This document shows positions 4,178-39,461 of a DNA stretch of 48,025 nucleotides, one piece after another; position 1 is the first letter of the stretch; each line of letters begins with the position of its first letter. Origin of the DNA: Acidobacterium sp. (lineage in GTDB: Bacteria; Acidobacteriota; Terriglobia; Terriglobales; Acidobacteriaceae). The notes under the pieces were generated by a model. It made no database searches. It saw only the letters and a program-made list of their open reading frames with translations, and was not told the DNA's origin. Both the position numbers and the translations under genes were made by a program. The stretch spans positions 1 through 48,025 of the forward strand of contig DAHUYD010000098.1 of assembly GCA_027315385.1 (NCBI GenBank). Reading direction: 5' to 3'.

Positions 4178-4206
4178 TTGTTGGCCCGTGAAGCCGATGT
4201 TAGCAT
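4178..4206 (+). promoter_or_regulatory. Candidate sigma-70 promoter for the glycosyltransferase genes
   Basis: TTGTTG (4178-4183) and TAGCAT (4201-4206) are separated by exactly 17 bases. Transcription would start near 4213, about 28 bases before ATG 4241. This argues against the in-frame TTG at 4178 as the start of the glycosyltransferase, since it lies within the -35 box. Confidence 0.4.
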
Positions 4207-4240
4207 AAGGGCAATCCCTCGGCCGCCCACGGCAGATCGT

Positions 4241-6564: not shown

Positions 6565-6690
6565 GGAGACGATGCCGCTGTATGGGGCGTGGGCGATGCG
6601 GCGCGATACCGGTGTGGTAAGGTGAATGGACGCATCGGCGCCAGAGACGCCCAGCGAACTTCTCGGGCCTCAGGGCGATGCGCAACTGGA

Positions 6691-7434
6691 ATGAGCGACT
6701 GGAAATCCACTTTATATCAGGCCTATGTTTCCAGTGGCCAGGCTGGCCTTCTCGGCGGCTCCGCCAGCGAGCAGTTTCGCGCACGCAGCGGATATTTGAG
6801 GCACCTGATCCGAAGGCACTTTCCCGCAAGCCGCACCTCTCGAATTCTGGACATCGGCTGCGGGCACGGGGCTCTCCTCTACTTCCTGCGTGAAATGGGA
6901 TACAGCAACGCGCGCGGCGTGGACGGTTCGGCGGAACAGGTCCAGCTGGCAGAACAGCTTGGGGTTTCCGGCGTGGAATTGGGAGACGGCATGGCGTTCC
7001 TGCGAAGCTGCGAGTCCGCGAGCGCGGACGCGATTTCCATCTTCGACGTTCTCGAACACCTGACGCGGCAGGAGGCTTTTCACTTTGTTACGGAAATTCG
7101 ACGGGTCTTGTTGCCGGGCGGACTGTGCATCGGGCATGTGCCGAATGCGGAGGGCATTTTCGGCTCGCGGATACGATATGCCGACGTGACGCACGAGCAG
7201 GCGTTTACCCCTGGCTCAATCAGCCAGATGTTCCGGGCCCTGCATTTCGACGACGTCCGCTGCTTCGAAGAGAAGCCTGTAGTGCACGGCGGGAAAAGCG
7301 CCCTCCGCAGGCTGCTTTGGGATGCAGGAACCCTCCCGTTCCGTATTCTTCTGATTGCGGAGACCGGCGGACGCGGGCAGGTGCTGTCGCAGAATTTGCT
7401 CTTTACCGCGCATCGGCCTGAAGTTGTGGGGTAA
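6691..7434 (+). CDS. Class I SAM-dependent methyltransferase
   Basis: A 247-residue protein (from ATG 6691) with the SAM-binding motif I ILDIGCGHGALLYFL near residues 50-65, an acidic residue after beta-2 (GVDGSAEQV), and motif-like ISIFDVLEHLTRQE followed by LLPGGLCIGHVPNAEG. This is the Methyltransf_11/23 type, often found in glycan clusters where it methylates sugars. The frame is open back to 6589, but the extra residues look non-coding and ATG 6691 (MSDWKSTLYQAY) opens the domain naturally. It is third in the plus-strand group after the two glycosyltransferases and converges on another methyltransferase 41 bases away. Confidence 0.85.
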   Translation: MSDWKSTLYQAYVSSGQAGLLGGSASEQFRARSGYLRHLIRRHFPASRTSRILDIGCGHGALLYFLREMGYSNARGVDGSAEQVQLAEQLGVSGVELGDGMAFLRSCESASADAISIFDVLEHLTRQEAFHFVTEIRRVLLPGGLCIGHVPNAEGIFGSRIRYADVTHEQAFTPGSISQMFRALHFDDVRCFEEKPVVHGGKSALRRLLWDAGTLPFRILLIAETGGRGQVLSQNLLFTAHRPEVVG

Positions 7435-7475
7435 CTGTACTACGCCTGCCTGTCGGCAACGTTGCAGACGGCGGC

Positions 7476-8189
7476 TCAGTTTTGAGCCACAAAAATGAGG
7501 GTAATGCGAAACCCCTCCAACAGAGGAGTCAAGTTCACCAGACGCTCATAAGCCATCATGGGCCAGAACAGCGCGGTACGCCCACCCGTATAAGCGGGCT
7601 CAGGCTCGATCATGCGGAAATCGACGCCGGAAAATCCCGCCTTTCCGCAAAAGCGCTTCACCGCGCCGCGAGTATTGCCGCGATAGAAAGTGGGCCACGG
7701 ATCGTGCGTGTCCGGCGTGCTTTGCCGCATACGGCGCGCCACCCTGACATGCAGAGCGCGCGGCACGCATTTGCTTCCGAGCGGCATATAGTGCATGAGG
7801 TTAATGGTGCGGCAGCAATAAATGCCGCCGGGCCGGAGCACGCGCCTGATTTCGACCAGGTGGTCCAGCGGATGTTCGACGTGTTCCATCACGTGGTTGG
7901 ATACGGCCGCATCGAACGAGCCGTCGGCGAACGGCAGGTGTATGCCATCGTAAATCTCGGCGCGGGAAAGACTGGAGTTGCCGAGAACTTCGGTGGAGAC
8001 ATCGACTCCCGTAACAGGCCCGATAGCGGCGAAGAATTCCGAGCAGGCGTTGGATGGCCCGGAACCGATCTCCAGAATGGAGGCGCCGGCCGGGATTTTC
8101 TCGCGGCACAGGTTGAGAAAAGGGAGCGTTCCGCCCTGCCAGCCGGGACGGGAATAGTAATACTTCCGATAGAAGCGATCGATTGCCAT
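7476..8189 (-). CDS. Class I SAM-dependent methyltransferase
   Basis: A 237-residue methyltransferase with motif I ILEIGSGPSNACSEFF, GVDVS after beta-2, and FDAAVSNHVMEHVEHP, then VLRPGGIYCCRTIN. The C-terminal part after residue about 150 is hydrophobic and Arg-rich (VPRALHVRVARRMRQS) and ends with a possible membrane-associating stretch (FRITLIFVAQN). ATG 8189 (MAIDRFYRKYY) is preferred over upstream in-frame codons lying inside the neighbouring gene. It lies 14 bases after the Wzy-like gene and is probably co-transcribed with it, supporting a role in modifying the same polysaccharide. Substrate unknown. Confidence 0.83.
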   Translation of the reverse strand: MAIDRFYRKYYYSRPGWQGGTLPFLNLCREKIPAGASILEIGSGPSNACSEFFAAIGPVTGVDVSTEVLGNSSLSRAEIYDGIHLPFADGSFDAAVSNHVMEHVEHPLDHLVEIRRVLRPGGIYCCRTINLMHYMPLGSKCVPRALHVRVARRMRQSTPDTHDPWPTFYRGNTRGAVKRFCGKAGFSGVDFRMIEPEPAYTGGRTALFWPMMAYERLVNLTPLLEGFRITLIFVAQN

Positions 8190-8203
8190 GCGAGTCTGCC
8201 CCG

Positions 8204-9709
8204 TCAATCTCCGGCAATGCTGCGAATTCTCTCCTGCGAAAACAGCGGGACGCCCTTGCGGCGCGGGTTGTCTCCGGTCATGGAAATGGATCGGACGATC
8301 CATCCAGTGAACCAGGAAACCAGCAGGATCGAGATGGGTGTGAACAGGAGAAAGCCGATGGCGAGCGCACCGACACTGGTGACGGCGATTCCCATTGCGC
8401 TGGTAACCGTAACGACGGTGCCCCAGGGGCGAGTCATATCGAACATGCTGTCGTAGACGATAAAGGCCAGCGGAAGGAGCAGCAGCGGCACGGCGATCAC
8501 GCCGGCCCAGCCGAAACCGCCCCATGCGTCGGCAATCGTGCTGGTTGTGACATAGCTCGTGGGCTGATAGCTGGACTGGAGGCCGCCGACTGAGGCGCGA
8601 TACCAGGTGCCATCGCGATCGGGCTTTTTGGGCATCAGGAAGTGCGGAATGGAGTTCGCCACGTCGATTTCGACGGTGGCCGGACCCCAGTGGTAATGCG
8701 AGCAGGCGGCGATCACGGCTCCGTCATCCGGGATCAGGGTCAGGCGATTGAGAGTATAGGTACCGGGTTTGCGGAAATAATCTCCCGCACGGGCATGAGA
8801 CGTCTGCATGGAGGCGCCGATACTTTCGGTGGCCTGCTCCCAGTGCTGGGGCGCGGCAGCCGCCAGTCTGGACATGGTTGCAATTTCCCGCCAGAGGTTT
8901 GGCTGATCTCTGAAGCCGCGAGTCCACAGGTACCAGGGAGAGACAAAGAGAAACAGCACCGCGGTCATTGCGGCAGCGACCGCGTAGTGCCGCAGCCTGA
9001 ATCTGAACCCCCTGAAATACGCTGTGACGAAGATGATGAACGGGGGCAGGACATATCCCGTTCTGGAACCCGCCGCGAAGCCGAAAAGCTGAATGGCGGC
9101 GGCCGGCCAGAAGGCCGCCCATCCGAAACAGTACCGTCCCTCCGTCCTGCGAATGCGGGCATCCACGGCGATCACAAGAGAAAGCGGCAGCAGAGCGGAG
9201 AATGCCCTGGCGACACCGTGTCCCAGCGAGGTAGCCATGTCCGGGTGAGCCAGCGAGAAGTTGACCATGTATGTTGTTCCCGCCAACCCCAGGACCAACG
9301 AAACGGCATACATGACTTCGGAATGGGTTTCGGTGGAGGGTTCCAGCGGCTTCGGCAAATCGAGGCGTATCCAGGCAAAGAGAAAAACGCCGACCATGAG
9401 GGACAGGAAGAAAACGGCATAGACGGCGATGGTGAGCTGGGGCGCGCGCAGGTTGAGGTCGGCCGCTTCGAATATGAACACCTTGGCGAACTGCGAGAGG
9501 ACGAGGGTGTACACGGCAAACGCCGCGAACAGGATACCGCCGATGGTGCCAAGGCCCCCGAGCATGTTGTAGGTGACGCAGATGGCGAGCATGGCGACGG
9601 ACATCGTCGCCACAAAGGGAAGGGCGGTGCCGGACGCGACTTCGCCGACGGCGAGAAAGAGGATCAGGCCGATGATGGTGAGTGGCGAAAGCAGGAGGCG
9701 TCTGGACAT
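8204..9709 (-). CDS. Multispanning membrane protein, Wzy-like polysaccharide polymerase candidate
   Basis: A 501-residue protein with roughly ten or more hydrophobic segments, beginning MSRRLLLSPLTIIGLILFLAVGE. Two clusters of helices flank a large hydrophilic loop (about residues 265-400) that should face the periplasm. This is the layout of O-antigen/repeat-unit polymerases (Wzy/EpsG type). Those families are too divergent for motif assignment by eye, so the call leans on topology and on position between wza/wzc and a methyltransferase. Arg-rich RIRRTEGR and FRGFRFRLRHY segments fit cytoplasmic or active-site arginines. An O-antigen ligase is the main alternative. Confidence 0.6.
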   Translation of the reverse strand: MSRRLLLSPLTIIGLILFLAVGEVASGTALPFVATMSVAMLAICVTYNMLGGLGTIGGILFAAFAVYTLVLSQFAKVFIFEAADLNLRAPQLTIAVYAVFFLSLMVGVFLFAWIRLDLPKPLEPSTETHSEVMYAVSLVLGLAGTTYMVNFSLAHPDMATSLGHGVARAFSALLPLSLVIAVDARIRRTEGRYCFGWAAFWPAAAIQLFGFAAGSRTGYVLPPFIIFVTAYFRGFRFRLRHYAVAAAMTAVLFLFVSPWYLWTRGFRDQPNLWREIATMSRLAAAAPQHWEQATESIGASMQTSHARAGDYFRKPGTYTLNRLTLIPDDGAVIAACSHYHWGPATVEIDVANSIPHFLMPKKPDRDGTWYRASVGGLQSSYQPTSYVTTSTIADAWGGFGWAGVIAVPLLLLPLAFIVYDSMFDMTRPWGTVVTVTSAMGIAVTSVGALAIGFLLFTPISILLVSWFTGWIVRSISMTGDNPRRKGVPLFSQERIRSIAGD

Positions 9710-9757
9710 TTACATTGATCTCGCAGTGTCGCCGCTCTTCGGCTCCGCGACTTTGAG

Positions 9758-10750
9758 TTACGGCAGCAGATAACCAAGGCCCACTGCAGCTTCGACCGCG
9801 GTCTGAGGCCCGGTCCCGCTGGCTATGGCCGCCTTAAAGCCGTTGGTCGGGATATAGAGAATGTCGTTCGACCTTAGCGCGATATCTTTCTCCTTCCCCT
9901 TCATCACCTTTTTCAGGTCGAAGAGGATCTCCACCCGCTTCCGGTCCGCGGTGGTACGGATGATCATGGCTTTGGAAAGGGCGGCGCCGTATTGAAGGCC
10001 GCCTGATATGGAGATGGCCCCAACCACCGTAATGGGCGCATTGTCGGAGAGAGGCAGGGCCTGCGGTTTCATGACCTCGCCGACCACATAGGCGTTTCCA
10101 ACGCGTGGCACCACGACCGTGTCGCCCGCCACGAGCGGGATGTTAGTTTCGTCGCTGGTTTTCGGGTCCACACCGAGAGTGACGGTAATGGGCTGCGGGT
10201 CGCCACGCCGATGCACGGTGATGGTATGGCTGGCGAATTGTGTAAAGCCTCCGCAGGCTGAGATCACATCCAGCAGCCGCAGTTGCCCAAACACGGGGAC
10301 AGGAGCGGGCCGCGTTACCTCCCCCACTACGGTGATGGACTGGGAGGCTGAACTGGCAATGGACACGGTGACCTGCGGATCGACGAGGATGCCGTCCGCC
10401 TTCAGCCGGCTTTCCAGGTACTTCGAAGCCTGGGCCGGGGTCATTCCGGCAAGCTTCACGGTTCCGAGATAAGGCAGAATGACCGTACCGTCGTTGTTGA
10501 CGCGGAGGCCGCCGGATTCCCCGCCGAGGGTGGTGGTCGTCAGTTCGGGCACACCATAGGTGGCAAGCGCGAGCGTGTCGCCGGGCAGGATGGTCGTTTT
10601 TCCCTGCGCGATGTGCAGCGCGGAGGCGGGAGCGCTCGGTTGGGACGATATGGTGGTAATCGACGGGCCGGTATACTGCCCCATGGCCGCAGCCCCGCCG
10701 CAGATCAGCGCGAGACCCGCTGCCGCAATCGTGCGCATCCTGTTTTTCAC
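9758..10750 (-). CDS. Polysaccharide export protein, Wza family (Poly_export/SLBB)
   Basis: A 330-residue periplasmic/outer-membrane protein. It has a signal peptide (residues about 5-28, hydrophobic to AAAMGQ), the Poly_export domain (ILPGDTLALATYGVPEL through VNNDGTVILPYLGTVKLAGMTPAQA), and two SLBB domains (ITVVGEVTRPAPVPVFGQLRL and AYVVGEVMKPQALPL). Wza-type proteins form the channel that passes capsule or exopolysaccharide out of the cell with Wzc. GTG 10750 is chosen because GGAGG lies five bases upstream; ATG 10738 is an alternative. There is no clear lipobox cysteine, unlike E. coli Wza. It directly follows wzc (29-base gap). Confidence 0.9.
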   Translation of the reverse strand: MKNRMRTIAAAGLALICGGAAAMGQYTGPSITTISSQPSAPASALHIAQGKTTILPGDTLALATYGVPELTTTTLGGESGGLRVNNDGTVILPYLGTVKLAGMTPAQASKYLESRLKADGILVDPQVTVSIASSASQSITVVGEVTRPAPVPVFGQLRLLDVISACGGFTQFASHTITVHRRGDPQPITVTLGVDPKTSDETNIPLVAGDTVVVPRVGNAYVVGEVMKPQALPLSDNAPITVVGAISISGGLQYGAALSKAMIIRTTADRKRVEILFDLKKVMKGKEKDIALRSNDILYIPTNGFKAAIASGTGPQTAVEAAVGLGYLLP

Positions 10751-10779
10751 CTCAACCTCCAAACCACTCCCAGCCGCGG

Positions 10780-12942
10780 CTACTTGCCGTATTCATAGGT
10801 GTAATAGCCAAGATAGCCGTAGTATTCGGGCATCGTGGCATCCACGCCGTTAAAGACAAATCCATAAACTTTCACGTCGAGATCCCGCAGGATCTCGGCG
10901 GCCCGCGAGAGCATGCGGCGGGTGCAGTATCCCTGGCGGATGACCATGACGAGGCCGTCGGACTGCGCCGCGACAATGGCGGGATCGGTCACCGAGAGAA
11001 CAGGCGGCGTGTCGAAGAGCACGTAATCGTATCGTTCCCGGAGCTGGCGGACCAATTCGACCATCTGGTCGGAAGCGAGCAGGTCGGCAGGCAGGGGCGG
11101 GACTGTTCCGGATGGAATGATGTCGAGCGTTTTCAGCGTTTGGTGGGTGTGGATGACTTCATCGAGGGTGAAGTAGCCGGTGAGCACCTCGGAGAGGCCT
11201 TTGCCGCCTTCCATACCCAGGCGCTTGTAGACCGAAGGCCGGCGCATATCGGTGTCGACCAGCACGACCCGCTTACCGCCCTGCGCGAGCACGGCCGCCA
11301 TATTGACGGCAACGGTGGATTTGCCCTCTCCCGGCTGGCAACTGGTGACGGCAATGACTTTGGATTCGCGGGAGGTTGAGGAGAGGCGCATGGAGGTGCG
11401 GAGGGCGCGGAACGCTTCCGCGAAGGGTGAACGCGGATCACGCAGCAGCTCCGGTCCCGCAGCGAGTTCGGCTTCCGACTCCCGGCTTTTCCAGTGGCTT
11501 TGGGGAATGACGGCGAGCGAGGGCAGCCCCAGCATCTCCTGAATTTCATGCGCGTCGCGCAGGCGGGTGTCGACTTTGTCGATGAAGAGAGCCAGCCCTA
11601 CTCCGCCCAGCGCGCCGAAGAGAAAGCCGACGATGCCCAGCATTTCCGGGGAATGGCTGGAGGGCCCCAGGGGCGCGTACGCCAGATCGACCACGCTGAC
11701 CGTGGCGGCATTCAGACCGGCGTCGATGGCGGCCTCGCGGAGCCGGCCGATCAGACTTTCATACATCAGGCGGTTCGACTCATAGTCTTCCGACAACAGC
11801 ATGTATTTCCCGACGTCGCTGCTCTCCCCGTACATTTGCTGCACTTTTCCGGTAAACATGCTCTTCGCCTGGTTTTCGGCAGCTTCGGCGGCGCTGTAGG
11901 AGTCCTTTGCCTGATTGAGGACTCGCTGCTCCTGCTGGGTTAGCTGCCGGTCAAGGGTCGCAACCTGGGCTTTGAGCTGCTTGACCTGGGGATAATTGGG
12001 GCCGTACACGGGGCGCAGCTTCGCCAGTTCCCCGAGGGCGGTATCCCTCTGCAGGCGAAGCTGACTCAGCAGGTCGGAGTCGACGCCGAGCGGAGTGAGC
12101 CCGCTGTCCTGAATCTGATCGAGGGGCATGGACTGGAGCGTCCGATATCTCGCCTCCGCCAGAACTCGCTGTTCCGTGGAGTCGGCGACCTGCTTCTCCA
12201 GATCGGTGAGTTCGGCAACCATCAGACTGTTGTGCTCCGGATCGAGAGAGTTGAGGCCGAGATTCTTCTGCAGGCCGAGCATCTGATCCTGCTCGGTCTG
12301 GACGCGTTTGCGCAGGTCGTCCAGCTGCCCCGTGAGCCAATCGCTGGCCTGCGAAGCTGTGCCGTACTGCATGTTGAAGTTCTTTTTGATGAACTCGTTG
12401 ACGACGGCATTGGCCACGTCGGCCGACAGCGCCGGCGAGCGGCTCTCGTAAGAGACCGTGATCATCTGCGACCGGGGCACCGCTTCGACGACTAAGTTCT
12501 TTCGCAGGATGCCGACCATGGCGGCCTGCACCACCGGATTATCGAGGTTGCCGTGGAGCAGGGGCGATTTCGGACTCCCGAGAAATATCGGATTGTTCTG
12601 GAGGTTCAGCGTGCCGGCCACGGCGAGCAGCAGACTCCTGCTGTTCATGATCAGCGTGTCGCTCTGAATGACCGTGTCCAGATCGCCCGAGCCCCCGCCG
12701 ACGGCCGCGGAGAGGGCTGACTTGAGATCGGCGGTTGCGTTCGGCTGAATCTGCAGCTCGCCGGTCGCCGTATAGCGCTTTCCATGGAGGATTCCGCCCG
12801 CCGCGAACACCGCCGCACAACCCAGAGCAAAGATGGCCAGCAACACACGCCGCTTACGGATCACCAGCCACAGCTCGGAGAGGGAGATATCTCTGGATTC
12901 AGCCCCAGGAGAGACAATTTTGCCGCGCAGTGAGTGTTGCAC
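10780..12942 (-). CDS. Polysaccharide co-polymerase and tyrosine autokinase, Wzc family (BY-kinase)
   Basis: A 720-residue inner-membrane protein. The N-terminal Wzz domain has its first membrane helix at about 33-53 and a long periplasmic coiled-coil region rich in Gln/Glu/Leu (about 210-390); the second helix lies near 430-455. The cytoplasmic BY-kinase has Walker A CQPGEGKST (about residue 535), Walker A' VLVDTDMRRPS (about 560) and Walker B VLFDTPPVL (about 645). The last 15 residues hold seven tyrosines (EYYGYLGYYTYEYGK), the autophosphorylation cluster. These kinases set chain length and drive export by cycling phosphorylation with a phosphatase, and no phosphatase gene is seen here. 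GTG 12942 is preferred over TTG 12945 because of AGAGG spacing. Confidence 0.93.
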   Translation of the reverse strand: MQHSLRGKIVSPGAESRDISLSELWLVIRKRRVLLAIFALGCAAVFAAGGILHGKRYTATGELQIQPNATADLKSALSAAVGGGSGDLDTVIQSDTLIMNSRSLLLAVAGTLNLQNNPIFLGSPKSPLLHGNLDNPVVQAAMVGILRKNLVVEAVPRSQMITVSYESRSPALSADVANAVVNEFIKKNFNMQYGTASQASDWLTGQLDDLRKRVQTEQDQMLGLQKNLGLNSLDPEHNSLMVAELTDLEKQVADSTEQRVLAEARYRTLQSMPLDQIQDSGLTPLGVDSDLLSQLRLQRDTALGELAKLRPVYGPNYPQVKQLKAQVATLDRQLTQQEQRVLNQAKDSYSAAEAAENQAKSMFTGKVQQMYGESSDVGKYMLLSEDYESNRLMYESLIGRLREAAIDAGLNAATVSVVDLAYAPLGPSSHSPEMLGIVGFLFGALGGVGLALFIDKVDTRLRDAHEIQEMLGLPSLAVIPQSHWKSRESEAELAAGPELLRDPRSPFAEAFRALRTSMRLSSTSRESKVIAVTSCQPGEGKSTVAVNMAAVLAQGGKRVVLVDTDMRRPSVYKRLGMEGGKGLSEVLTGYFTLDEVIHTHQTLKTLDIIPSGTVPPLPADLLASDQMVELVRQLRERYDYVLFDTPPVLSVTDPAIVAAQSDGLVMVIRQGYCTRRMLSRAAEILRDLDVKVYGFVFNGVDATMPEYYGYLGYYTYEYGK

Positions 12943-13162
12943 CAAACCTCTCAGTGTTCAGGGAATTCGGGCGGAACTCCGGATCGATATGCTTCCAGAC
13001 AACAGCGGGGCGGCATCGTGGTTCCGGCGACCGGTTGATACAGCAGTGTTGCTCCCGGGGCAGCCACCGGCCCAGATTCGGCGCACGCACTCTGGCGCAC
13101 CGTCTCTGCTCTCGCTCCGTTGCGAATCGTGGCTCAAGTGTACCGCCCTGTTTCTTTCCGGG

Positions 13163-15706
13163 TCAATACAGGATTTTGGAGGAAATCCGGTCGTTTGCGT
13201 GGCTCTCGGACAGAATGTCGACTGTTTCCGCAGTCTGGCGCAGCCATTCCACCGGTCCCGAGCGCAGCAGGGCAGGAATGGCGTCAGCCGGCTGAGGCCG
13301 AGCAAACAAATACCCCTGGAGGATGTCGCAGTTCATTTTTCTGAGGGCCTGCGCCTGCTCCTCGCGCTCCACGCCTTCGGCCACCACCTGCAATCCCAGG
13401 CTATGCGCCAGCGACAGGATCGCCTCGACCAGCGCGCTGGTTCCTTCGGGCTCGCACACCCGCTCGACAAACGAGCGGTCGATTTTCAGCGTGTGAATGG
13501 GCAACTGGTGGAGGTGCTGGAGCGAGGAGTAGCCTGTACCGAAATCGTCAATGGCAAAGTGCACGCCCAGGTCCGCCAGATCGTGCATTTGCCGCGCGAC
13601 ATCTTCCAAATTGCGCATGACGGCTGTCTCGGTGACCTCGATCTGCAGATTGCCGGGTGAAGCTCCCAGATCCGCCAGCGCTTCCCTCACCTGCACGGAA
13701 AAATCCACGCGCATGAACTGGAGAGGAGAGACATTGATCGCAATCCGGGGCACGGTCAGCCCCTGCCGCTTCCACTCCTCGCATTGCCGGCAGACTTCCC
13801 GAACGACCCAGTATCCCACGGGAACAATCAGTCCGCTCTCTTCGGCAATAGGGATGAACCTGTCGGGGCCGACCAGGCCGTAGCGGGGATGGTGCAGACG
13901 CAGCAGCGCCTCCAGCCCCCACAGACGGCCGTCAGCCGTGTACTCGGGCTGGTAGTACACCTCGAATCCGCCATCTTTGACGGCCCTGCGCATGAACATT
14001 TCCAGCTCGTTCGCTTCCGTGGTCGAGCGGCTGATCTCCTGGGAAACCAGAACGAAATCGTTGCCGCCGGACCATTTCACCCGGTACATGGCGGCGTCCG
14101 CGCTGCGCCACAGCTCGGGAGCGTCGGTTCCGTGGTCCGGATAAATGGCGACGCCGAAGCTGGCGCTCAGGTCAATTGGGTACTGGTCGACGACCAGAGG
14201 CTTGCGGAGCGCGGCGAGAAGATCGGCCGCGATCGTTTCCGCGTCGGCGACAGTCGCAAGATCGCCGACAACAACGGCAAACTCTTCGCCACCGGAGCGG
14301 GCCACGGTATCCGACGCGCGAATGCGGCTCCGCAGGCGTTCAGCCACCTGCTTCAGGCATAGATCCCCGATCGCGTGGCCGTAGGTGTCGTTGATCTGCT
14401 TGAAGCGGTCCAGATCGAGGCAGATGAGGGCGGCCTTTCTGGCTTTGCGTTCGGCTATGGCCAGCGTCTGCTCCATGCGGTCCAGCAGGAGCAGACGGTT
14501 GGGCAGGCCGGTAAGCATGTCGTGATGTGCCTGGTAGAGCAGGCGGTGGTGGAGATGCTGGCGTTCCGTGACGTCCTGAACGAGCGAGAATCGCGCTTTC
14601 CTGCCCCGGAAACGGATGCTGTGCGAGGAAACCTCCACCTGAATGCGGCGCCCGTCGCGGAGGATGTGGGTCCATGGCCCTGAGACAACGGTGCGCTCGT
14701 CGCCGGCCAGGCTGACGACGGTCTGCTCCATGGCCTCCACTTCCTCCGGCGGGCGGATATCCCGGAGGGTCATATTCTGGAATTCCTGTTCCGTATAGCC
14801 GTACCGCTGGGCCGCCACATCGTTCACAGTGAGAAAGTGCAGCGTCTCCGTGTCGAAAATCCACATGGGGTGCGGATTGTTCTCGAACATCAGGCGGTAT
14901 TCCTGGAAGCGATCGTCGGCGTCGCGTTTCTGCTCTTCCAGCAGCGTAAGGATCATGCCAAACGCGACGAAGTATTCGGGGAGATTCCAGAGTTCGCGGG
15001 AGACATAAAGGTGGGGAGCCAGCCAGCCCAGCAAGAGCGCCGAAGGAAAGATTGCACCCCACGCGGCAAGGCCCACTACCGCGCTAAGGATCCCCGCAGT
15101 GGCTCTCGGAAACTCTTCCCAGTAAAGGACCGCATTGAGCAGAAATATCTCGCAGGCAATGGCATGGACGGCCAGTTCAGGGCGGCTCGCTCGCATGATC
15201 GCAACGCCCATCCACACCGACGCGCCGCCCAGGATGGCCGCGCCCCAGCGTCTGGCATGGCGAGCCTGACGCGCGGTTTGGGAATCCTGGGCGTGACGTC
15301 CCAGCCGAATCGTGACCGTCGCAAAGGCCGCCTGGACGGTGATGGCGAGGCCGAGCATCAGCCATCGCGATGGCGATGCCAGGGCTGCGACGGCCACATA
15401 TACGATAGCGGGCAAAGCCAGCAGAGCCGCCGGAACAGCCTGCCTCCACCGGGTTTCCCGCGTTAGTTTCGAGGCGAGAGCAAAGGACGTGCCACAAAGG
15501 AACAGGCCGCTCATGGCTCCCCAGGCGAGCCAGTTCGCCGCGACGGCACCAGCGGCGTGATGCAGCTGGAATCCGAAGTGGACCAGCGCGAAGAGCCAGC
15601 CAATCAGCCAGTAACGGGTCCGGACCGTCGGGTTTCCCCGGTGGATCGATCCAAAGAGCACCACGAGCAGTCCAATAATGAGCAGATCGAGGAGGCTCTT
15701 ATGCAT
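13163..15706 (-). CDS. Membrane PAS-GGDEF-EAL protein (c-di-GMP synthesis and degradation)
   Basis: An 847-residue protein starting at ATG 15706 behind AAGGGA. Residues about 1-260 hold eight or so membrane helices of a putative sensor. A PAS domain follows (MFENNPHPMWIFDTE onward, about 290-400), then a GGDEF domain with active site GGEEF and an intact inhibitory site RASD five residues before it. The EAL domain shows EALLR, INVSP, EVTET, AIDDFGTGYSSL, KIDRSF and QGYLFARP, so metal- and substrate-binding residues look complete. Both activities may therefore be present, with PAS and membrane input deciding direction. It is encoded just upstream of wzc on the same strand (220-base gap), which suggests c-di-GMP control of polysaccharide production. 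Confidence 0.93.
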   Translation of the reverse strand: MHKSLLDLLIIGLLVVLFGSIHRGNPTVRTRYWLIGWLFALVHFGFQLHHAAGAVAANWLAWGAMSGLFLCGTSFALASKLTRETRWRQAVPAALLALPAIVYVAVAALASPSRWLMLGLAITVQAAFATVTIRLGRHAQDSQTARQARHARRWGAAILGGASVWMGVAIMRASRPELAVHAIACEIFLLNAVLYWEEFPRATAGILSAVVGLAAWGAIFPSALLLGWLAPHLYVSRELWNLPEYFVAFGMILTLLEEQKRDADDRFQEYRLMFENNPHPMWIFDTETLHFLTVNDVAAQRYGYTEQEFQNMTLRDIRPPEEVEAMEQTVVSLAGDERTVVSGPWTHILRDGRRIQVEVSSHSIRFRGRKARFSLVQDVTERQHLHHRLLYQAHHDMLTGLPNRLLLLDRMEQTLAIAERKARKAALICLDLDRFKQINDTYGHAIGDLCLKQVAERLRSRIRASDTVARSGGEEFAVVVGDLATVADAETIAADLLAALRKPLVVDQYPIDLSASFGVAIYPDHGTDAPELWRSADAAMYRVKWSGGNDFVLVSQEISRSTTEANELEMFMRRAVKDGGFEVYYQPEYTADGRLWGLEALLRLHHPRYGLVGPDRFIPIAEESGLIVPVGYWVVREVCRQCEEWKRQGLTVPRIAINVSPLQFMRVDFSVQVREALADLGASPGNLQIEVTETAVMRNLEDVARQMHDLADLGVHFAIDDFGTGYSSLQHLHQLPIHTLKIDRSFVERVCEPEGTSALVEAILSLAHSLGLQVVAEGVEREEQAQALRKMNCDILQGYLFARPQPADAIPALLRSGPVEWLRQTAETVDILSESHANDRISSKILY

Positions 15707-15805
15707 GAAGGTTCCCTTCAGCGCCGCAAACCGCGACCCCGGGAAATTGTCAATGGACCGTGCCCTGAGACTATCGCGAGAGATACCTCTGAGGCCAGTG
15801 TTTTC

Positions 15806-15840
15806 CCCCAAAGTACCCCTTTTGGGGAATGCGAATCGCA
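15806..15840. promoter_or_regulatory. Inverted repeats upstream of the GGDEF-EAL gene
   Basis: CCCCAAA (15806-15812) and TTTGGGG (15821-15827) form a perfect 7-bp inverted repeat with an 8-base spacer. Next to it, TGCGA-A-TCGCA (15830-15840) is a second short palindrome. They lie 100-135 bases upstream of the GGDEF-EAL start and about 130 bases upstream of tmk. No T-tract follows on either strand, so a protein-binding site is more likely than a terminator. The regulator is unknown. Confidence 0.4.
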
Positions 15841-15969
15841 ACGTCCGGGCGCGTCGAGTTCCCCGCTGGTTCGCCCGCTGCCCAATTTCTGATCTCGTAC
15901 CTGGGAGCCGCGACCTTGCAGAGGCACTGGACGGTCATGGCAGTCGAGGATATGCCGTAAACTCCTGGC

Positions 15970-33266: not shown

Positions 33267-35702
33267 ATGAAGCGTAGCCTCGCACTCTGGGCGCTCGTCG
33301 CCATCATCCTGGCCGGTATGCCGTCGGCTCACGCCGTGTCGGCGGGCAAGCTCTTTAAAAAGGGCCAGCGCGCCGAGGCCGCCGGTGACGTTCTCACCGC
33401 CTATCAGGATTTCAACCAGGCATACCACCGCAAGCCGACGGACGAGCGCTACCGCATCGCATGGGCGCGCACGCGGTTCCAGGCGGCGGCTCTCTGGGTT
33501 CACCGCGGCGAGCAGGTACGCGACCAGGGCAAATACACCGAGGCGCTCACCGACTTTCTGCGCGCCGTGAGCATCGACCCCAGCAACGAGCTGGCCAGCC
33601 AGGAGATCGGCGCGACGCGCGCCAAAATCAACGCGGAGACGCCCGCCGAGGCACCGCAGGCTGCCCGCACGGCGGGAGAGGCCTTTGCGGCGCTGGCCGC
33701 TCCTCCCCAGTTGAAGCCCATTTCCAACGAGCCGCTCACCGTGCACATGGTCGCGGATACGCGGGTGGTGTATCAGACCGTCGGCAAACTGGCGGGCATC
33801 AATGTGCTTTTCGACCCGAGTTATCAGTCCAAACGCATCGAGGTCGACCTGAATAATGTGACGCTGTACGACGCACTGCGCATTGTTGCAATGCAGTCGG
33901 ACACGTTCTGGCGGCCGGTCACCAACAATACGATCTTTGTCGCGGAAGACACCCGCGCCAAGCATACCGAGCTGGATCAGCAGGCGGTGGAGACGTTCTA
34001 TCTGCATAACGTCGCGCAACAGAACGATTTCACCGAGATCCAGACTGTTCTCCGCAACCTATTCCAGAACGCCCGCATCAACGGGGTCGCCAGCGAGAAC
34101 GCGATCGTGATGCGGGGCACGCCCGATGAGATAGTCCTGGCGCGTCACCTGATTGCGAATCTGGACAAGGCGCAGCCGGAAGTCGTGATCGACGTGGCGG
34201 TGCTGGAAGTGAGTCGCGATCTGCTGCGCAACATCGGGGTCCAGCTGCCGCAGACGGCCAGCATCAGCTTCCAGGCGTCGAATGCCAACCTGAACAATAC
34301 CAGCTCGACCACCAGCAGCACCACCGGGACGACAACGGGGACCGGCAGCCAGGCGAGCGGTCTGACGCTCAACAACCTGGCCCATCTGAACTCGACGAAT
34401 TTCGCAATCTCGATCGGCCAGGCCGCCGTCGACCTTCTGCTCACCGATTCTCGGTCGCACATCATCCAGAACCCGCAGGTCCGCTGCTCCAACGGCCAGC
34501 AATCCACCATGAAGATCGGCGAACGCATCCCCATCGCGACCGGCTCGTTCGCGGAACCGGGGCTGGCCGCGGGCGCGGCTATCGGATACGCGCAGACCCA
34601 GTTCCAGTACATCGATGTCGGCGTGGACATGACGATCACGCCTACGGTGCACTTCGATAACGACGTGACGCTGAAGAGCAAGATCGAGATCTCCGCCACC
34701 AACGGCTACAGCACCATCGAGGGCGTCCAGGAGCCGATCATCACCCAGCGCATCGTGGACCATACAGTGCGCCTGCGCGACGGCGAAGCCAGCCTGCTGG
34801 GGGGATTCCTGCAGCGCCAGACAACCTGGACCATCAGCGGCACTCCGGGGCTCGGCGAGCTTCCGCTCATCAAGTATCTGTTCAGCACGCAACAGAAGGA
34901 AGTAGCCACCGACGAGATCGTCTTCCTCATGATTCCGCACATCGTCAGCCAGGAGCAGATTTCGCCCGGGGATGTGCAGGAGATCGACACCGGGACCGGG
35001 AATGAGGTCGCGGTGCGGCAGATCCGGACTAAAGAGGAGCTGGCAGCCGACCTCAGCGGCCAGGCCGCGAGCCAGAACACGGGCGCGCCGGCGGGTGCGG
35101 GAGTGGCCGGAGCGGTCCAGACAGGGCAGGGTCAGTCGGGCGCTGTTCAACCCCCCGCGGCTCAAACCACGACGCCTCCGCCCGGCGCGTCCGGCAGCGC
35201 GCCATCCACAGTCACCGGCACGCAGGCTGCGCGGCAGGCTATTAACAAGCTGAAGCAGGATAATGCGGCCGGGCCGCCCGCCAGCCTGCAGTTGACGCCG
35301 ACGCAGTCGACCGTTAAGGCCGGTTCAACGTTGAAGATCGGCATTAATGTTTCCGGCGGCAACGATATCTTCGGGGTCCCGCTTGCGATTCATTACGACG
35401 CGGCGAGGCTAAGCCTGGTCAACGTAGACCTGCCCGATCCCAGCCGGCCGAATTTCCTCGGCCAGGATGGGCAGGCCATCACGCTGGTGCACCGCGACGA
35501 CGGACACGGCAATCTGGACGTTGCCCTTTCGCGGCCCCCGGGAGTCAAAGGAGTAAGCGGTTCGGGTCCGCTGTGCGTGCTGACATTCCAGGCCAAAGCG
35601 CCCGGAGTGGCCTCAGTCGCGATCGACGGGCCTGTGGTTCGCAACAGCCGGCAGCAGATCATGCCGGCGACGGGGTCTCAGGCGCTGGTGACTGTTCAAT
35701 AA
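33267..35702 (+). CDS. Secretin (GspD/PilQ type) with C-terminal cohesin-like domain
   Basis: An 811-residue secreted protein starting at ATG 33267 behind GGAG. A signal peptide (MKRSLALWALVAIILAGMPSAHA) leads into a TPR-like helical region (about 25-110), then a STN/N0 domain (LTVHMVADTRVVYQTVGKLAG), an N1-type domain (VETFYLHNVAQQNDFTEI), and a Ser/Thr/Gly-rich insert. The secretin barrel includes SRSHIIQNPQ, VDMTITPTVH, VRLRDGEASLLGG and GTPGLGELPLIKYLFS. After a low-complexity Ala/Gly/Gln/Pro linker, residues about 669-811 (LQLTPTQSTVKAGSTLKIGINVSG pattern, then PLAIHYDAARLSLVNV and VLTFQAKAPGVASVAI) form a cohesin-like beta-sandwich. It leads an operon with two pseudopilins. No GspE, GspF or peptidase is nearby. 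Confidence 0.9.
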   Translation: MKRSLALWALVAIILAGMPSAHAVSAGKLFKKGQRAEAAGDVLTAYQDFNQAYHRKPTDERYRIAWARTRFQAAALWVHRGEQVRDQGKYTEALTDFLRAVSIDPSNELASQEIGATRAKINAETPAEAPQAARTAGEAFAALAAPPQLKPISNEPLTVHMVADTRVVYQTVGKLAGINVLFDPSYQSKRIEVDLNNVTLYDALRIVAMQSDTFWRPVTNNTIFVAEDTRAKHTELDQQAVETFYLHNVAQQNDFTEIQTVLRNLFQNARINGVASENAIVMRGTPDEIVLARHLIANLDKAQPEVVIDVAVLEVSRDLLRNIGVQLPQTASISFQASNANLNNTSSTTSSTTGTTTGTGSQASGLTLNNLAHLNSTNFAISIGQAAVDLLLTDSRSHIIQNPQVRCSNGQQSTMKIGERIPIATGSFAEPGLAAGAAIGYAQTQFQYIDVGVDMTITPTVHFDNDVTLKSKIEISATNGYSTIEGVQEPIITQRIVDHTVRLRDGEASLLGGFLQRQTTWTISGTPGLGELPLIKYLFSTQQKEVATDEIVFLMIPHIVSQEQISPGDVQEIDTGTGNEVAVRQIRTKEELAADLSGQAASQNTGAPAGAGVAGAVQTGQGQSGAVQPPAAQTTTPPPGASGSAPSTVTGTQAARQAINKLKQDNAAGPPASLQLTPTQSTVKAGSTLKIGINVSGGNDIFGVPLAIHYDAARLSLVNVDLPDPSRPNFLGQDGQAITLVHRDDGHGNLDVALSRPPGVKGVSGSGPLCVLTFQAKAPGVASVAIDGPVVRNSRQQIMPATGSQALVTVQ

Positions 35703-35720
35703 GCCTGGAGCGGTATTTTT

Positions 35721-36188
35721 ATGCGGATGGTTCATACAACACGGCGCGGCGAGCGGGGCCTCACTCTGGTGGAGCTGATCGTCACCACCTTTATCCTGTC
35801 GATCCTCGCCACCGCGGCCATCCCGATCGTGCGCTTTCAGGTCAAGCGCCAGAAAGAAGAACTTCTGCGCTACGATCTGTGGAACATGCGCAAGGCGATC
35901 GACGCCTATCACGACGCGGCAATGAAGGGCGCATTCCAGACCAAGGTCGACAGCTACAACTATCCGCCGGATCTGCAAAAGCTGGTGGATGGCGTGGATG
36001 TGCAGGGCCACAAGGTGAAGTTCCTGCGCCGCATCCCCGTCGATCCCATGACCGGCGACGCCGAGTGGGGAATGCGGTCGATGCAGGACGACCCCAACAG
36101 CGACAGCTGGGGCGGCCAGAACGTCTTCGACGTCTACTCCAAGTCGCAGGGAACAGCCCTCGACGGCACCAAATACAACACCTGGTAA
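35721..36188 (+). CDS. Type II secretion pseudopilin, GspG-like (first)
   Basis: A 155-residue pseudopilin. The prepilin peptidase site is RGERG|LTLVEL with cleavage after Gly13 and the conserved Glu at mature position 5, followed by the hydrophobic helix (IVTTFILSILATAAIPIV). The globular part holds the GspG-like calcium-loop region (RRIPVDPMTGDAEWGMRS through SDSWGGQNVFDVYS). It ends in YNTW. The gene begins 18 bases after the secretin stop, so the two are co-transcribed. It probably builds a periplasmic pseudopilus with its neighbour. Confidence 0.92.
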   Translation: MRMVHTTRRGERGLTLVELIVTTFILSILATAAIPIVRFQVKRQKEELLRYDLWNMRKAIDAYHDAAMKGAFQTKVDSYNYPPDLQKLVDGVDVQGHKVKFLRRIPVDPMTGDAEWGMRSMQDDPNSDSWGGQNVFDVYSKSQGTALDGTKYNTW

Positions 36189-36194
36189 ACCCCT

Positions 36195-36605
36195 GTGCTG
36201 CGCAAACTCTCAACCCGGAAACGCGACGGCGGCTTCACCCTCATCGAGCTGATCGTGGTCATGTCGATCATCGCGGTTCTGGCGCTGGTGGCTGTGCCTG
36301 TTTTTACTTCAGATATCCGCGCCGCCAAAGAGGCCGCGCTGAAGGAAGACCTGCACGTGATGCGAACCGCGATTCAGGCCTATACCGAAGACAAGGACAA
36401 GGCGCCGCAATCGCTGGACGATCTGGTTCAGGCCGGCTATCTCGCCTCTATCCCCGTCGACCCCATGACGAACAGCAAGGACACCTGGCAGACGGACACG
36501 AACGACAGTTTTTCCGACCTCGATCAGACCGAGTCCGGCATCACCGACGTGCACAGCGGGTCGGACAAGACGGGGTCCGACGGCCAGGCTTACTCGACCT
36601 GGTGA
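36195..36605 (+). CDS. Type II secretion pseudopilin, GspG-like (second)
   Basis: A 136-residue pseudopilin starting at GTG 36195, six bases after the previous stop. The cleavage site is KRDGG|FTLIEL with Glu at mature position 5 and a hydrophobic helix (IVVMSIIAVLALVAVPVF). The rest follows the GspG pattern (DLHVMRTAIQAYTEDK, ASIPVDPMTN) and ends in YSTW like its neighbour. Shared architecture and ending suggest an old tandem duplication. A short non-coding stretch (36606-36860) follows, in which I see no gene and no clear terminator. Confidence 0.9.
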   Translation: MLRKLSTRKRDGGFTLIELIVVMSIIAVLALVAVPVFTSDIRAAKEAALKEDLHVMRTAIQAYTEDKDKAPQSLDDLVQAGYLASIPVDPMTNSKDTWQTDTNDSFSDLDQTESGITDVHSGSDKTGSDGQAYSTW

Positions 36606-36860: not shown

Positions 36861-38378
36861 TCACCAGGAATACACGTCCAACTCGCGGATCGCTATCGGC
36901 TGCTGATCGAACGAGAGGTCGGCTGTTCCGTGGGGCAGAATGAGACCAATCGAGCCAGTTTCCGATCTGACCGTTGGCGCGAGAGCGAGACCGGTGAACA
37001 GACCTGATGTGCTTTTGACCCGGACCACGACAACGTGACCAGAGGTGTTTGCATATTGGAGTTGTGCAAAGGTCGGACCGCGTGTCGCCTTCATCCCGCG
37101 GATGCTGTCGCGATTCGCCAAATACTTTTCCGGTGCTTTGTCCTCACCGTCCGCGACCATCAATGCAAGATCATGCGCCGGAACGGAGACCGTGACGTTC
37201 GCTGCTTCGACATTCTGTCCGTTCCAGACGTCGCGCAGTGATTTTGGACCGCCTTTGAACCCCAGCTTGTCCCAAGGAATCGTGACTTGCGTTGAAGCGT
37301 CCGTGCGATTCAGTATCCCGATCGCACGCCGTCCGGCGATCGCCATCGGCTTTACCCAGATCTGGATCCCAGGACTGGGCTCATCGACTTTGATAGGTTG
37401 CAATCCATAAGGATCATTGTGAATTGCGAGTGCTTCGCGATTGGTCAGCAGCGACAAGATAGCGGGAGATAGACGTGTCAGGTCTGAGCCAACCATCAGA
37501 GGCGCGCTCGAAATTGCCCACAGCCCCATGTGGATGCGATCGAGCGATTTGGTCATACCGCGCATGCCCATGACCATCATGTCGAGGTCGTTGTAATAGC
37601 CGGTATGCTGCGCTTCCGGATGCAACCCTGCGTCGAAAGAATGTAGGACATTGTCGACGGTGATGACGCGCTTTTCGTGTGCGGGATCATGCAGGCTCTC
37701 CACGACGGGGGGAATGATGTCGTCACCGGTGCGCCAGATGGTGCTTTCGATTCCTCCAACGCCCGGACCCCAGAACCAGGGATTCTGGCTGCCCCACTCG
37801 CAAATAGAAAAATATAATTTCCGTCCAGTAATTCTTTCAGCGTTCTGAATGGCGTGGGCAATCTGCGCATACTGGACCGCGCCAGAGAGCCTCTCCTTGT
37901 CGCCTCCACACCAGTCCACCTTGACGTAATCGAAGCCCCACTTCGAAAACTGCAGGAAGTCCTGATCATAGTGACCCTCGCTGCCAGTATTCAGAAGCTT
38001 TGGTCCGGAGTCAGGGTACATGCTGCACCCGTCCCGACCTGCGTCGGTGTAGATGCCGGCCTTCAGTCCCAGGCTGTGAATGTATGCCGCAATGTTGGAC
38101 ATGTCGCCATCTTTCTGGCCGGGCTGAATGGCAGGCCACTGTTTGGGATTGACGGCAATGTTGCCAGCGGCATCGCGTTGACCCAGCCACCATCCTTCGT
38201 CGATGACAACGTACTCGTAGCCAGCCTCTTTCATGCCATTCGAGGCCAAAGCTTTAGCCTGCTGCTGAACTATTTGGGAATTCACAGTGTTGGCGAAGCT
38301 ATTCCAGGAATTCCATCCCATTGGCGCAGCGCCGAAGCACGCGGTTGCGGATACGAGAAGTAGCCAGGAAAATTTCAT
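36861..38378 (-). CDS. Alpha-galactosidase-like glycoside hydrolase, family GH27
   Basis: A 505-residue exported hydrolase. A short signal peptide (MKFSWLLLVSATACFGA) precedes the catalytic barrel that opens GWNSWNSFA, typical of GH27. The retaining nucleophile is Asp155 in YVKVDWCGGD; the acid/base Asp is in IWRTGDD (219 or 220). NDLDMMVMGM and the antiparallel C-terminal domain follow. The last 120 residues form an additional beta-rich region that may bind carbohydrate. GH27 releases terminal alpha-galactose, and some members act on N-acetylgalactosamine or beta-arabinopyranose. The gene follows the DUF2961 gene by 69 bases in the same direction. Sampled lines show lower GC (about 50-60%) than flanking genes. 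Confidence 0.9.
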   Translation of the reverse strand: MKFSWLLLVSATACFGAAPMGWNSWNSFANTVNSQIVQQQAKALASNGMKEAGYEYVVIDEGWWLGQRDAAGNIAVNPKQWPAIQPGQKDGDMSNIAAYIHSLGLKAGIYTDAGRDGCSMYPDSGPKLLNTGSEGHYDQDFLQFSKWGFDYVKVDWCGGDKERLSGAVQYAQIAHAIQNAERITGRKLYFSICEWGSQNPWFWGPGVGGIESTIWRTGDDIIPPVVESLHDPAHEKRVITVDNVLHSFDAGLHPEAQHTGYYNDLDMMVMGMRGMTKSLDRIHMGLWAISSAPLMVGSDLTRLSPAILSLLTNREALAIHNDPYGLQPIKVDEPSPGIQIWVKPMAIAGRRAIGILNRTDASTQVTIPWDKLGFKGGPKSLRDVWNGQNVEAANVTVSVPAHDLALMVADGEDKAPEKYLANRDSIRGMKATRGPTFAQLQYANTSGHVVVVRVKSTSGLFTGLALAPTVRSETGSIGLILPHGTADLSFDQQPIAIRELDVYSW

Positions 38379-38447: not shown

Positions 38448-39461
38448 TCAGACGGCTCCCGAAAGTTCGTAGACCCAGGAGTACCTCGTGTATTTCGTCG
38501 GCTGTGGATGACCTGTTGTCCCGAACGTTTTTTCGCCGCGCCGTTCCCCGCAACGGCAAGTCAGGCGAAAGCCATCGCGGAAAACGACAGGATCTTCATC
38601 GTGGTAGCGATACGCCGAAAAGGAACTCGTCGCTTCGTCCTTGTGGGTCAACCCGGCCTGGGGAAGATGGTAGAGACCACGATTGAAGTAATAGGTTCCG
38701 AGAAAGTAGTCCTCCAGACCTGAGGAAAGGAACTGTGGCTTCGTGTCGCGCCTCGTTTTTGGGCCAAAGTGTGCCCGCATCTGTCCTTCCAAAAACTCGA
38801 AGTTGCTGCTCTGGGCCGCCATAGTCACCTGAAACAGGAGTCCAGCGCCAGCTACTTTCGCAAGGTCGAATTCTTCCAGCGGCTGAACTTCCCGATCGAT
38901 GACCTTGTGCAGCTTCAGCCGCGCAGTTTGGGGCAACGGAAAACCGCATACTTGTAGCTGCCCATTCTCCAGCCCGCGAATGATCCACCACAAGAACGTG
39001 TCGCGCGGAACGCCAGGAGGTAATTCGGCGGTCACTCGAATGCTCCTCGAATATGGAATTCGATGGTTGAAGTAGATCCCGCTAGGCTCGCCTGTCACAC
39101 CTACGAAACGATTTCCCCACGGAGCGGCGGGATCCTGGAAGCCGACGCCTACGCCCAGACCGAGGTCCATGTCGATCGAGGGAACTATCTCTCCGTCCGC
39201 ATACACCCGGATCCGGAGTCGCTTGTAGTCTTTGAAAGCCCCTCCAAACCACATGTGGTCCAGATAGCCCGCCCCCGTATGCCAGGCCAGTTGCGCCTCT
39301 GTGGCTTTGAGAAAGGGCTGCTCTTCCTTCCCGGTGCTGGTGAAGGTGCATAGGCCGTGCGGAAACGGAGGCTCAGTGCCTTTAACTGGAGGTTGGCCCA
39401 TAAGAGCAGCCGAGGTAAGCGGCAATCCGAGAACAGTTCTAGTAAAAGCTCGCCGATCCAT
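38448..39461 (-). CDS. DUF2961 / GH172-family protein, exported
   Basis: A 337-residue protein with a Tat-like or Sec signal (MDRRAFTRTVLGLPLTSAALMG) and the DUF2961 core: YLDHMWFGG, the acidic pair in VPSIDMDLG, and SSGLEDYFLGTYYFNRG, whose Glu-Asp pattern is the family signature. DUF2961 is now glycoside hydrolase family 172, with characterised members cleaving alpha-fructofuranosides or arabinofuranosides. The ATG at 39461 has AAGGGA upstream. It is first in an operon with the GH27 gene, so the pair probably degrades one plant or microbial glycan. The C-terminus contains a Cys pair (LTCRCGERR). Confidence 0.82.
   Translation of the reverse strand: MDRRAFTRTVLGLPLTSAALMGQPPVKGTEPPFPHGLCTFTSTGKEEQPFLKATEAQLAWHTGAGYLDHMWFGGAFKDYKRLRIRVYADGEIVPSIDMDLGLGVGVGFQDPAAPWGNRFVGVTGEPSGIYFNHRIPYSRSIRVTAELPPGVPRDTFLWWIIRGLENGQLQVCGFPLPQTARLKLHKVIDREVQPLEEFDLAKVAGAGLLFQVTMAAQSSNFEFLEGQMRAHFGPKTRRDTKPQFLSSGLEDYFLGTYYFNRGLYHLPQAGLTHKDEATSSFSAYRYHDEDPVVFRDGFRLTCRCGERRGEKTFGTTGHPQPTKYTRYSWVYELSGAV

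Follow-up and report, generated by a model that had tools for sequence, protein, structure and literature searches.

A three-gene locus of an Acidobacterium sp. encodes a secretin whose C-terminal end carries what profile comparison and structure prediction identify as a true cohesin fold. The locus lies within a 48,025-nt stretch, hereafter the window, of the metagenome-assembled genome (MAG) GCA_027315385.1 (contig DAHUYD010000098.1, called C70 among the contigs of this genome). We read it as encoding the outer-membrane part of an atypical type II secretion-like machine of the type IV filament family, in which the cohesin would act as a periplasmic docking domain for a ligand other than a dockerin; we give this reading a probability of about 0.55. 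The motor of the machine probably lies on another contig. Cohesins are familiar as the enzyme-holding domains of cellulosomes.

The secretin-cohesin fusion

The three genes, encoding the secretin-cohesin protein and the prepilin-like proteins PP1 and PP2, all lie on the + strand and are spaced by 18 bp and then 6 bp. The open reading frame (ORF) of the secretin begins with an ATG at 33267, stops at 35702 and encodes 811 amino acids (aa). The features of the locus are listed below.

33267..35702, +: secretin-cohesin fusion gene, 811 aa (signal peptide, TPR-like region, N-domains, secretin core, linker, cohesin); from ORF, Pfam, AlphaFold and Foldseek
33342..33635, +: TPR-like helical region, residues 26-123; helices with a predicted local distance difference test (pLDDT) of ~95
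33735..34163, +: secretin N-domains, residues 157-299; alternating strands and helices in the model, together with Secretin_N at 253-304
34440..34946, +: secretin core, residues 392-560; PF00263
35055..35267, +: disordered linker, residues 597-667; pLDDT <50 for nearly all residues
35280..35699, +: predicted cohesin domain, residues 672-811; Pfam, profile, AlphaFold, Foldseek and VIA
35457..35567, +: best-conserved cohesin stretch, strands 5-6 with flanking loops, residues 731-767; alignment information content
35721..36188, +: PP1, prepilin-like, GspG-like, 155 aa; N_methyl above cut-off
36195..36605, +: PP2, prepilin-like, GspG/ComGC-like, 136 aa; N_methyl above cut-off

A first-pass annotation, made from the DNA letters alone, had described a secretin with a TPR region at one end and a cohesin-like domain beyond a linker at the other, followed by two pseudopilins. 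ORFs, Pfam and AlphaFold agree with this layout, except that the four TPR models matching the protein all score below their Pfam cut-offs. The Secretin family (PF00263) reaches 118.2 bits against a cut-off of 27.5, and Secretin_N (PF03958) 30.1 bits against 28.2 over residues 253-304. In the full-length AlphaFold model the secretin strands span residues 305-561 and cohesin residues 672-810 have a pLDDT of ~95; the model has a mean pLDDT of 72.5 and a predicted template modelling score (pTM) of 0.35, at which the relative placement of its domains is not interpretable. Searched with Foldseek, it matches secretins in the first 40 listed rows and cohesins in rows 41-50. GspD has the N-domains N0-N3; the window secretin has fewer. 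The two pseudopilins score 29.3 (PP1) and 36.8 bits (PP2) with N_methyl (cut-off 21.2). Against the GspG model TIGR01710 (cut-off 88.85), PP1 reaches 29.4 and PP2 38.5 bits; PP2 also scores 45.7 bits with ComGC, again under the cut-off.

The C-terminal domain is recognised as a cohesin by several routes. The Cohesin model (PF00963) matches residues 675-780 with 25.1 bits in the whole protein and 26.4 bits for the domain alone (cut-off 24.1); all 78 homologous domains of the alignment also match it, at E ≤ 0.01. A profile of these homologous domains has 27 PDB matches at E ≤ 1, of which 26 are chains of cohesins or scaffoldins; four of these reach E ≤ 0.001, the best 1.3e-6, and two bear the depositor name 'Endoglucanase' but are cohesin chains by title. 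As a single sequence the window domain finds no cohesin in the PDB (best E 0.12), which is why it looked marginal. The AlphaFold model of the domain, built from 78 aligned sequences, has a pLDDT of 94.4 and a pTM of 0.87. With this model, Foldseek gives 91 rows at E ≤ 0.001; each of the 50 listed is a cohesin or a chain that contains one, with 6kgc at the top (E 3e-10, TM 0.77/0.81). VIA returns cohesins in 49 of 50 listed rows, the best being 2vo8 (Z 17.1, root-mean-square deviation 2.1, 129 aligned); the 49 include 2o4e, whose title says no more than 'protein-protein interaction module', and the remaining row (number 50) is a CLIPPER domain. These structural matches rule out a plain Ig domain, so that the structural check, which could have returned a generic Ig fold, supports the cohesin assignment. 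We file the domain as a cohesin-fold domain rather than as a dockerin receptor.

A machine probably split between two loci

The first-pass annotation had also noted that no assembly ATPase accompanies the secretin. This holds for the neighbourhood: contig C70 has no match to PF00437, PF00482 or PF01478, and thus no GspE, GspF or prepilin peptidase. It does not hold for the genome, in which GspE and GspF are found on contig C129 and a prepilin peptidase with both A24 domains on C6. Two T2SSE matches exceed the cut-off, one on C129 (2787-3956) and one on C95 (22072-22908). C129 encodes GspF, GspE (542 aa), PilN (above cut-off) and then a 380-aa prepilin-like protein; the putative PilM-, PilO- and PilP-like proteins of this contig are so labelled from size, order and weak similarity. 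The 380-aa protein (L016:6880-8022) is recognised by no family model. It has a long low-complexity Gly/Ser/Thr tail and lacks the Glu of position 5, and this lack is a trait of GspK. Its relatives begin alike, likewise without Glu5; among the plasmid loci, the third prepilin genes of L179, L180 and L181 match it. A prepilin on C162 probably belongs to the machine as well; it shares 61-71% identity with one encoded upstream of gspF in 3 of 10 relatives. Apart from PP1 and PP2, the N_methyl search of the genome returns the C162 prepilin alone, and it recognises no GspH-K set.

The curated subunit models all stay below their cut-offs (in brackets): 137.5 for GspD (351.35), 531.1 for GspE (630.25) and 288.9 for GspF (424) on the type II side, and 114.6 for PilQ (284.35) and 547.4 for PilB (675.65) on the type IVa pilus side. 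The machine is therefore placed neither with the type II secretion systems (T2SS) nor with the type IV pili (T4P).

The C95 set was considered as a partner motor and is not favoured, as it has a secretin, an ATPase, two T2SSF platform genes and a peptidase of its own; its gene arrangement suggests a Tad locus (Tad, CpaF, TadB/C). Contig C110 encodes a second TPR-secretin (L018:5994-8144; 716 aa, Secretin 56.5 bits) in which no cohesin is recognised and whose neighbours are apparently unrelated.

Gene order was compared in 20 family loci and 20 loci from other families, chosen around cohesin matches and so giving no estimate of frequency. In the family, secretin and cohesin are present in 20/20 loci, PP1 is labelled in 17/20 and PP2 in 18/20, and gspE or gspF in 0/20. 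Sixteen of the 20 loci from other families have the secretin, and by our own profile a cohesin sits at its C-terminus in all 16. GspE belongs to the same gene run in 13 of these, with 57-67% identity to the C129 GspE, and a frequent order is GspF-GspE-PilM-PilN-two small genes-secretin. The three loci without GspE are L080, where PilM/N/P-like genes are followed by the contig end, and two loci (f2) of the same class; the latter two indicate that the split extends beyond the family. The complementary half was looked up in ten family genomes, hand-chosen from 50: GspF and GspE are found in 10/10, a further prepilin is labelled in 8/10, and a secretin or PP1 in 0/10. In one genome (G036) the cohesin-secretin and its GspE share a contig, ~458 kb apart.

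A tree of 42 ATPases supports the same picture. The C129 GspE groups with 31 others (10 from the family, 14 from other families and 7 from plasmid loci) at a branch support of 100/100. Eight family ATPases taken for PilB, an assignment made from score and PilT-sized neighbours, fall apart from this group (100/99). Homology, synteny and tree thus support the view that the missing ATPase reflects an operon split in this lineage. An orphan secretin without a motor is rejected in view of the C129 GspE and GspF, the synteny in other families, the complementary halves and the tree. The two halves of the machine probably belong together, which corrects the initial reading of the genome.

Distribution and age of the fusion

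A PP1-profile scan of named genomes gave 560 confirmed stretches, of which the best 80 are referred to as close loci. PP1 identity in these is 61-82%, and all are titled Acidobacteriota save one MAG labelled Rhodanobacteraceae. A cohesin match lies just ahead of PP1 in 79 of the 80. Cohesin and secretin sequence share one ORF in 75 of these 79, three ORFs are cut by a contig end (L097, L116, L171), and in L135 cohesin and secretin are separate ORFs. No close locus (0/80) has a gspE or gspF label within flanks of at most 10 kb, often ended by the contig. The cohesin alignment comprises the window and 77 close loci, omitting L097 and L116 as too short and L160 as lacking a match; a second alignment holds the window and 37 sequences, every second of 73 full-length relatives.

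Two of the close loci stand out. L160, the sole one without a recognised cohesin, has its secretin as two ORFs (285 and 348 aa), a break due to a frameshift or sequencing error. L133, the locus titled Rhodanobacteraceae, carries secretin-cohesin, PP1, PP2 and SmpB in the Acidobacteriota arrangement, and probably comes from a mislabelled or mixed MAG.

Across the phylum, PF00963 is matched at E ≤ 0.01 in 240 of 396 Acidobacteriota genomes (209 above cut-off), including 44 of the window's own family. The 20 genomes listed, of the 156 without a match, all belong to other families; going by the kinship order of this listing, we take it that no genome of the family lacks a cohesin match.

Outside the phylum, PP1 matches 26 plasmid or chromid records from Burkholderiales and Aliiroseovarius, with 35.8-43.0% identity in the 20 listed. 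Seven of the 26 were sampled; Pfam was applied to six of their secretins, and L185 was assessed by our own profiles only. Secretin, GspE, GspF and PP1 are present in 7/7 by annotation or blastp. PP2 is found in 6/7 (34-45% identity), and neither PP2 nor the third prepilin is seen in L185. The cohesin exceeds the Pfam cut-off in 4/6 of these proteobacterial secretins and is detected by our own profile in 4/7. The match in L184 is marginal (E 0.0036), L182 has a different tail sequence, and L185, from Cupriavidus metallidurans, has the operon with a secretin that ends in a Pro-rich tail only. The cohesin is probably old in this system yet losable, with independent gains as a possibility.

Conservation of the cohesin and the search for dockerins

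Mean identity to the 73 relatives is 55.0% for the N-domains, 52.5% for the core, 45.3% for the cohesin, 43.9% for the TPR-like region and 22.1% for the linker (residues 591-668); the aligned tail 565-668 spans 42 to 167 aa. The difference between cohesin and linker suggests that the cohesin is under selection and the tether free to vary. The dockerin of cellulosomal cohesins is bound by the 8-3-6-5 sheet (PMC8063739 and PMC5141474, in excerpt). Within the cohesin, conservation extends to both alternating faces of strand 5, as seen post hoc. By eye, only the strand-6 Arg and the G-V-x-G-x-G loop are widely kept across other families.

A cohesin-dockerin pairing, as the first-pass annotation had envisaged, is not borne out. 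The dockerin model PF00404 has no match above cut-off in the genome (91% complete; best E 4.2), and a dockerin match at E ≤ 0.01 occurs in 6 of the 44 family genomes that have a cohesin match. Across the phylum such matches occur in 160/396 genomes. A cohesin that is nearly as conserved as the pore, in a dockerin-poor family, implies a cohesin ligand that has gone unrecognised. Animal TMEM132 offers a precedent of a cohesin without detectable dockerins (PMC6030884, in excerpt). Two Acidobacteriota ORFs of ~1170-1190 aa (G323:C3:152977-153993 and G331:C9:84313-85329, in L084) contain two cohesins with an in-frame dockerin directly behind them.

A proposed docking ring in the periplasm

T2SS secretins assemble with 15 copies per pore, the C-terminal S-domain of GspD binds the pilotin, and the secretins studied are periplasmic apart from a small rim (all from PMC6532946, in excerpt). 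This last feature makes docking in the periplasm likelier than docking at the cell surface; the first-pass annotation had allowed for either, and the docked partner may be something other than a dockerin.

In the model that we prefer, the gene cluster is split in this lineage: the genes for the motor GspE, the platform GspF, PilM/N/O/P-like inner-membrane components and an additional prepilin-like protein are on another contig, and that for the peptidase is elsewhere. The cohesin, held on a disordered tether, would occupy the end of the secretin where classical GspD has its S-domain. With many copies per pore, the cohesins might be arranged as a flexible ring that offers docking sites at the periplasmic face of the outer membrane. 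Such a ring would capture either a helper for pore assembly or anchoring, or exoproteins pushed out by the pseudopilus. Its ligand would be something other than a classical dockerin, and might be contacted around the conserved strand 5-6 region, which is part of the dockerin-binding sheet of cellulosomal cohesins. A periplasmic ring with a non-dockerin ligand is proposed because no dockerin is found, the cohesin takes an S-domain-like position and secretins are periplasmic. More broadly, and at somewhat less than even odds, an old type IV filament branch of Acidobacteriota and Burkholderiales may dock a non-dockerin ligand (either the cargo or a helper akin to a pilotin) on a ring of secretin cohesins, meaning that cohesin recognition was recruited into outer-membrane secretion.

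A number of points weigh against the docking model. The non-dockerin ligand is a prediction, with no named partner. That the machine serves secretion rather than building a pilus is something we infer, since the curated T2SS and T4P models all fall below cut-off. Residues 731-767 have a mean information of 3.15 bits against 2.57 for the remaining cohesin, in a stretch that was picked post hoc; conservation of the front (8-3-6-5) and back sheets does not differ significantly (p 0.12); and the family motifs H-R-D-D and S-R-P-P-G of the strand 5-6 stretch are mostly altered in other families. PP1 and PP2 are labelled in only 8/16 and 9/16 of the secretin loci from other families. The ATPase tree has two outside references, E. 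coli GspE and HofB, which sit on long branches and whose place is unsure. The MAG is 91% complete and in 194 contigs. Finally, C. metallidurans (L185) demonstrates that the cohesin is dispensable in at least one lineage.

Alternative explanations

The cohesin could instead be a structural add-on, packed against its own secretin ring or a neighbouring subunit as a substitute for the S-domain, with no separate partner. Its position at the S-domain end of GspD would suit this role, and a helix of the ExeD S-domain touches the adjacent monomer (PMC6532946, in excerpt); the cohesin also accompanies the secretin across families. However, a tether that is predicted to be disordered and varies from 42 to 167 aa in aligned length makes a poor rigid clamp, C. 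metallidurans manages without the cohesin, and the conservation on both alternating faces of strand 5 (post hoc) speaks against such packing, so that we consider an add-on unlikely. Attachment of the pore to the envelope through a glycan (peptidoglycan, lipopolysaccharide core or exopolysaccharide) bound by the cohesin-fold domain has an outside chance. Jelly-roll folds related to cohesin include carbohydrate binders, and 2 of the 78 members match the Lectin_like Pfam model (best E 0.0037), but no carbohydrate-binding module appears among the 50 listed rows of Foldseek or of VIA, an absence that excludes nothing.

The machine might instead be a type IV or competence pilus whose cohesin docks a pilus-related periplasmic protein. 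Several features lean that way: PilN is above cut-off, separate PilM/N/O/P-like genes take the place of a GspL fusion, the PilB model outscores that of GspE (547 against 531 bits, both under cut-off), and a pilin-like gene lies upstream of gspF in 3/10 relatives, with a homologue on C162. Nevertheless, no PilT is seen among the T2SSE matches above cut-off in the genome (only C129 and C95; genome 91% complete), and the relatives G431 and G321 (98 and 99% complete) have a single T2SSE match in all. The other family ATPases, taken for PilB, form a separate clade, and PP1 and PP2 match GspG models, if weakly. A pilus is thus improbable in our judgement. Least probable is a cellulosome-like arrangement, in which hydrolases would be docked on the pore by classical cohesin-dockerin pairing. 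The true cohesin fold and the dockerin matches in 160/396 genomes of the phylum would fit it; we rejected it as the principal explanation because the genome has no dockerin (best E 4.2) and just 6/44 family genomes with a cohesin match have one. Periplasmic docking of a non-dockerin ligand by a secretion-like machine remains our preferred reading.

Neighbouring genes

Two window genes, at 36861-38378 and 38448-39461, are convergent with the prepilin genes. The product of the former looks like a secreted alpha-galactosidase (GH27-type start), as we presume, and the gene has a homologue close by in only 1 of the 80 close loci. Elsewhere in the window, positions 4178-15841 hold exopolysaccharide-type genes, namely two glycosyltransferases, a Poly_export/SLBB protein, a Wzz/GNVR/AAA protein and a PAS-GGDEF-EAL protein.

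On plasmids and chromids, the homologous operons have other neighbours. A Janthinobacterium plasmid (L183; 1-5638 and 16997-20474) has FG-GAP and RHS genes on both flanks of the operon, and one of its FG-GAP proteins matches SpvB and TcdB-middle domains. On a Paraburkholderia chromid (L206:8296-13893), a gene for an 1865-aa protein with GH2, F5-8 type C and Ig domains lies 72 bp upstream of the operon gspG; its gene position hints at a candidate cargo.

Comparison with known systems

Cellulosomal and non-cellulosomal cohesins (6kgc, 2vo8, 2xdh, 1ohz) resemble the window domain in fold across its entire length, with Z 16-17 in the best VIA rows, while sharing only 9-20% identity with it in the listed rows. 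In contrast to cellulosomal cohesins, that of the window is joined to an outer-membrane pore, in a genome in which no dockerin is found. In papers we find no description of a secretin-cohesin fusion, although earlier work on non-cellulosomal cohesins may mention one, and no functional study of the machine. A published overview of the type IV filament superfamily (PMC6668835) does not use the word 'cohesin'. The fusion is already present in database annotation, as NCBI labels two homologous secretins, those of Eleftheria terrae and Janthinobacterium lividum, 'cohesin domain-containing protein'.

These two species represent the plasmid and chromid operons of Burkholderiales and Rhodobacterales, which share with the window machine the secretin, GspE, GspF, PP1 and the ATPase clade. 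They differ in that the motor genes belong to the cluster itself, following the prepilin genes in J. lividum, and in their cohesin, which is marginal, replaced or missing in 3/7.

With the canonical Gsp T2SS, the machine has in common a secretin, GspE, GspF and GspG-like subunits. Unlike it, the window secretin has gained a TPR head and a cohesin tail, PilM/N/O/P-like genes replace GspL/M/C, the equivalog models score under cut-off and the N_methyl search of the genome recognises no GspH-K set. T2SS genes have been reported in an uncultured acidobacterium, without a cohesin in the available part of that report (PMC8787282). In the machine described here, which is common in Acidobacteriota, the 140-residue cohesin domain offers a simple handle.

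The best functional parallel, by analogy, may be the 'Pul' T2SS of Geobacteraceae. This system stands apart from the Gsp one, has the pseudopilins PulG, OxpG and TklG, and is needed for secretion of the multicopper oxidase OmpB (PMC3543383, in excerpt). The likeness, drawn from description rather than sequence, would lie in the three pseudopilins of the Pul/OxpG system, to which PP1, PP2 and the C129 prepilin-like protein may correspond.

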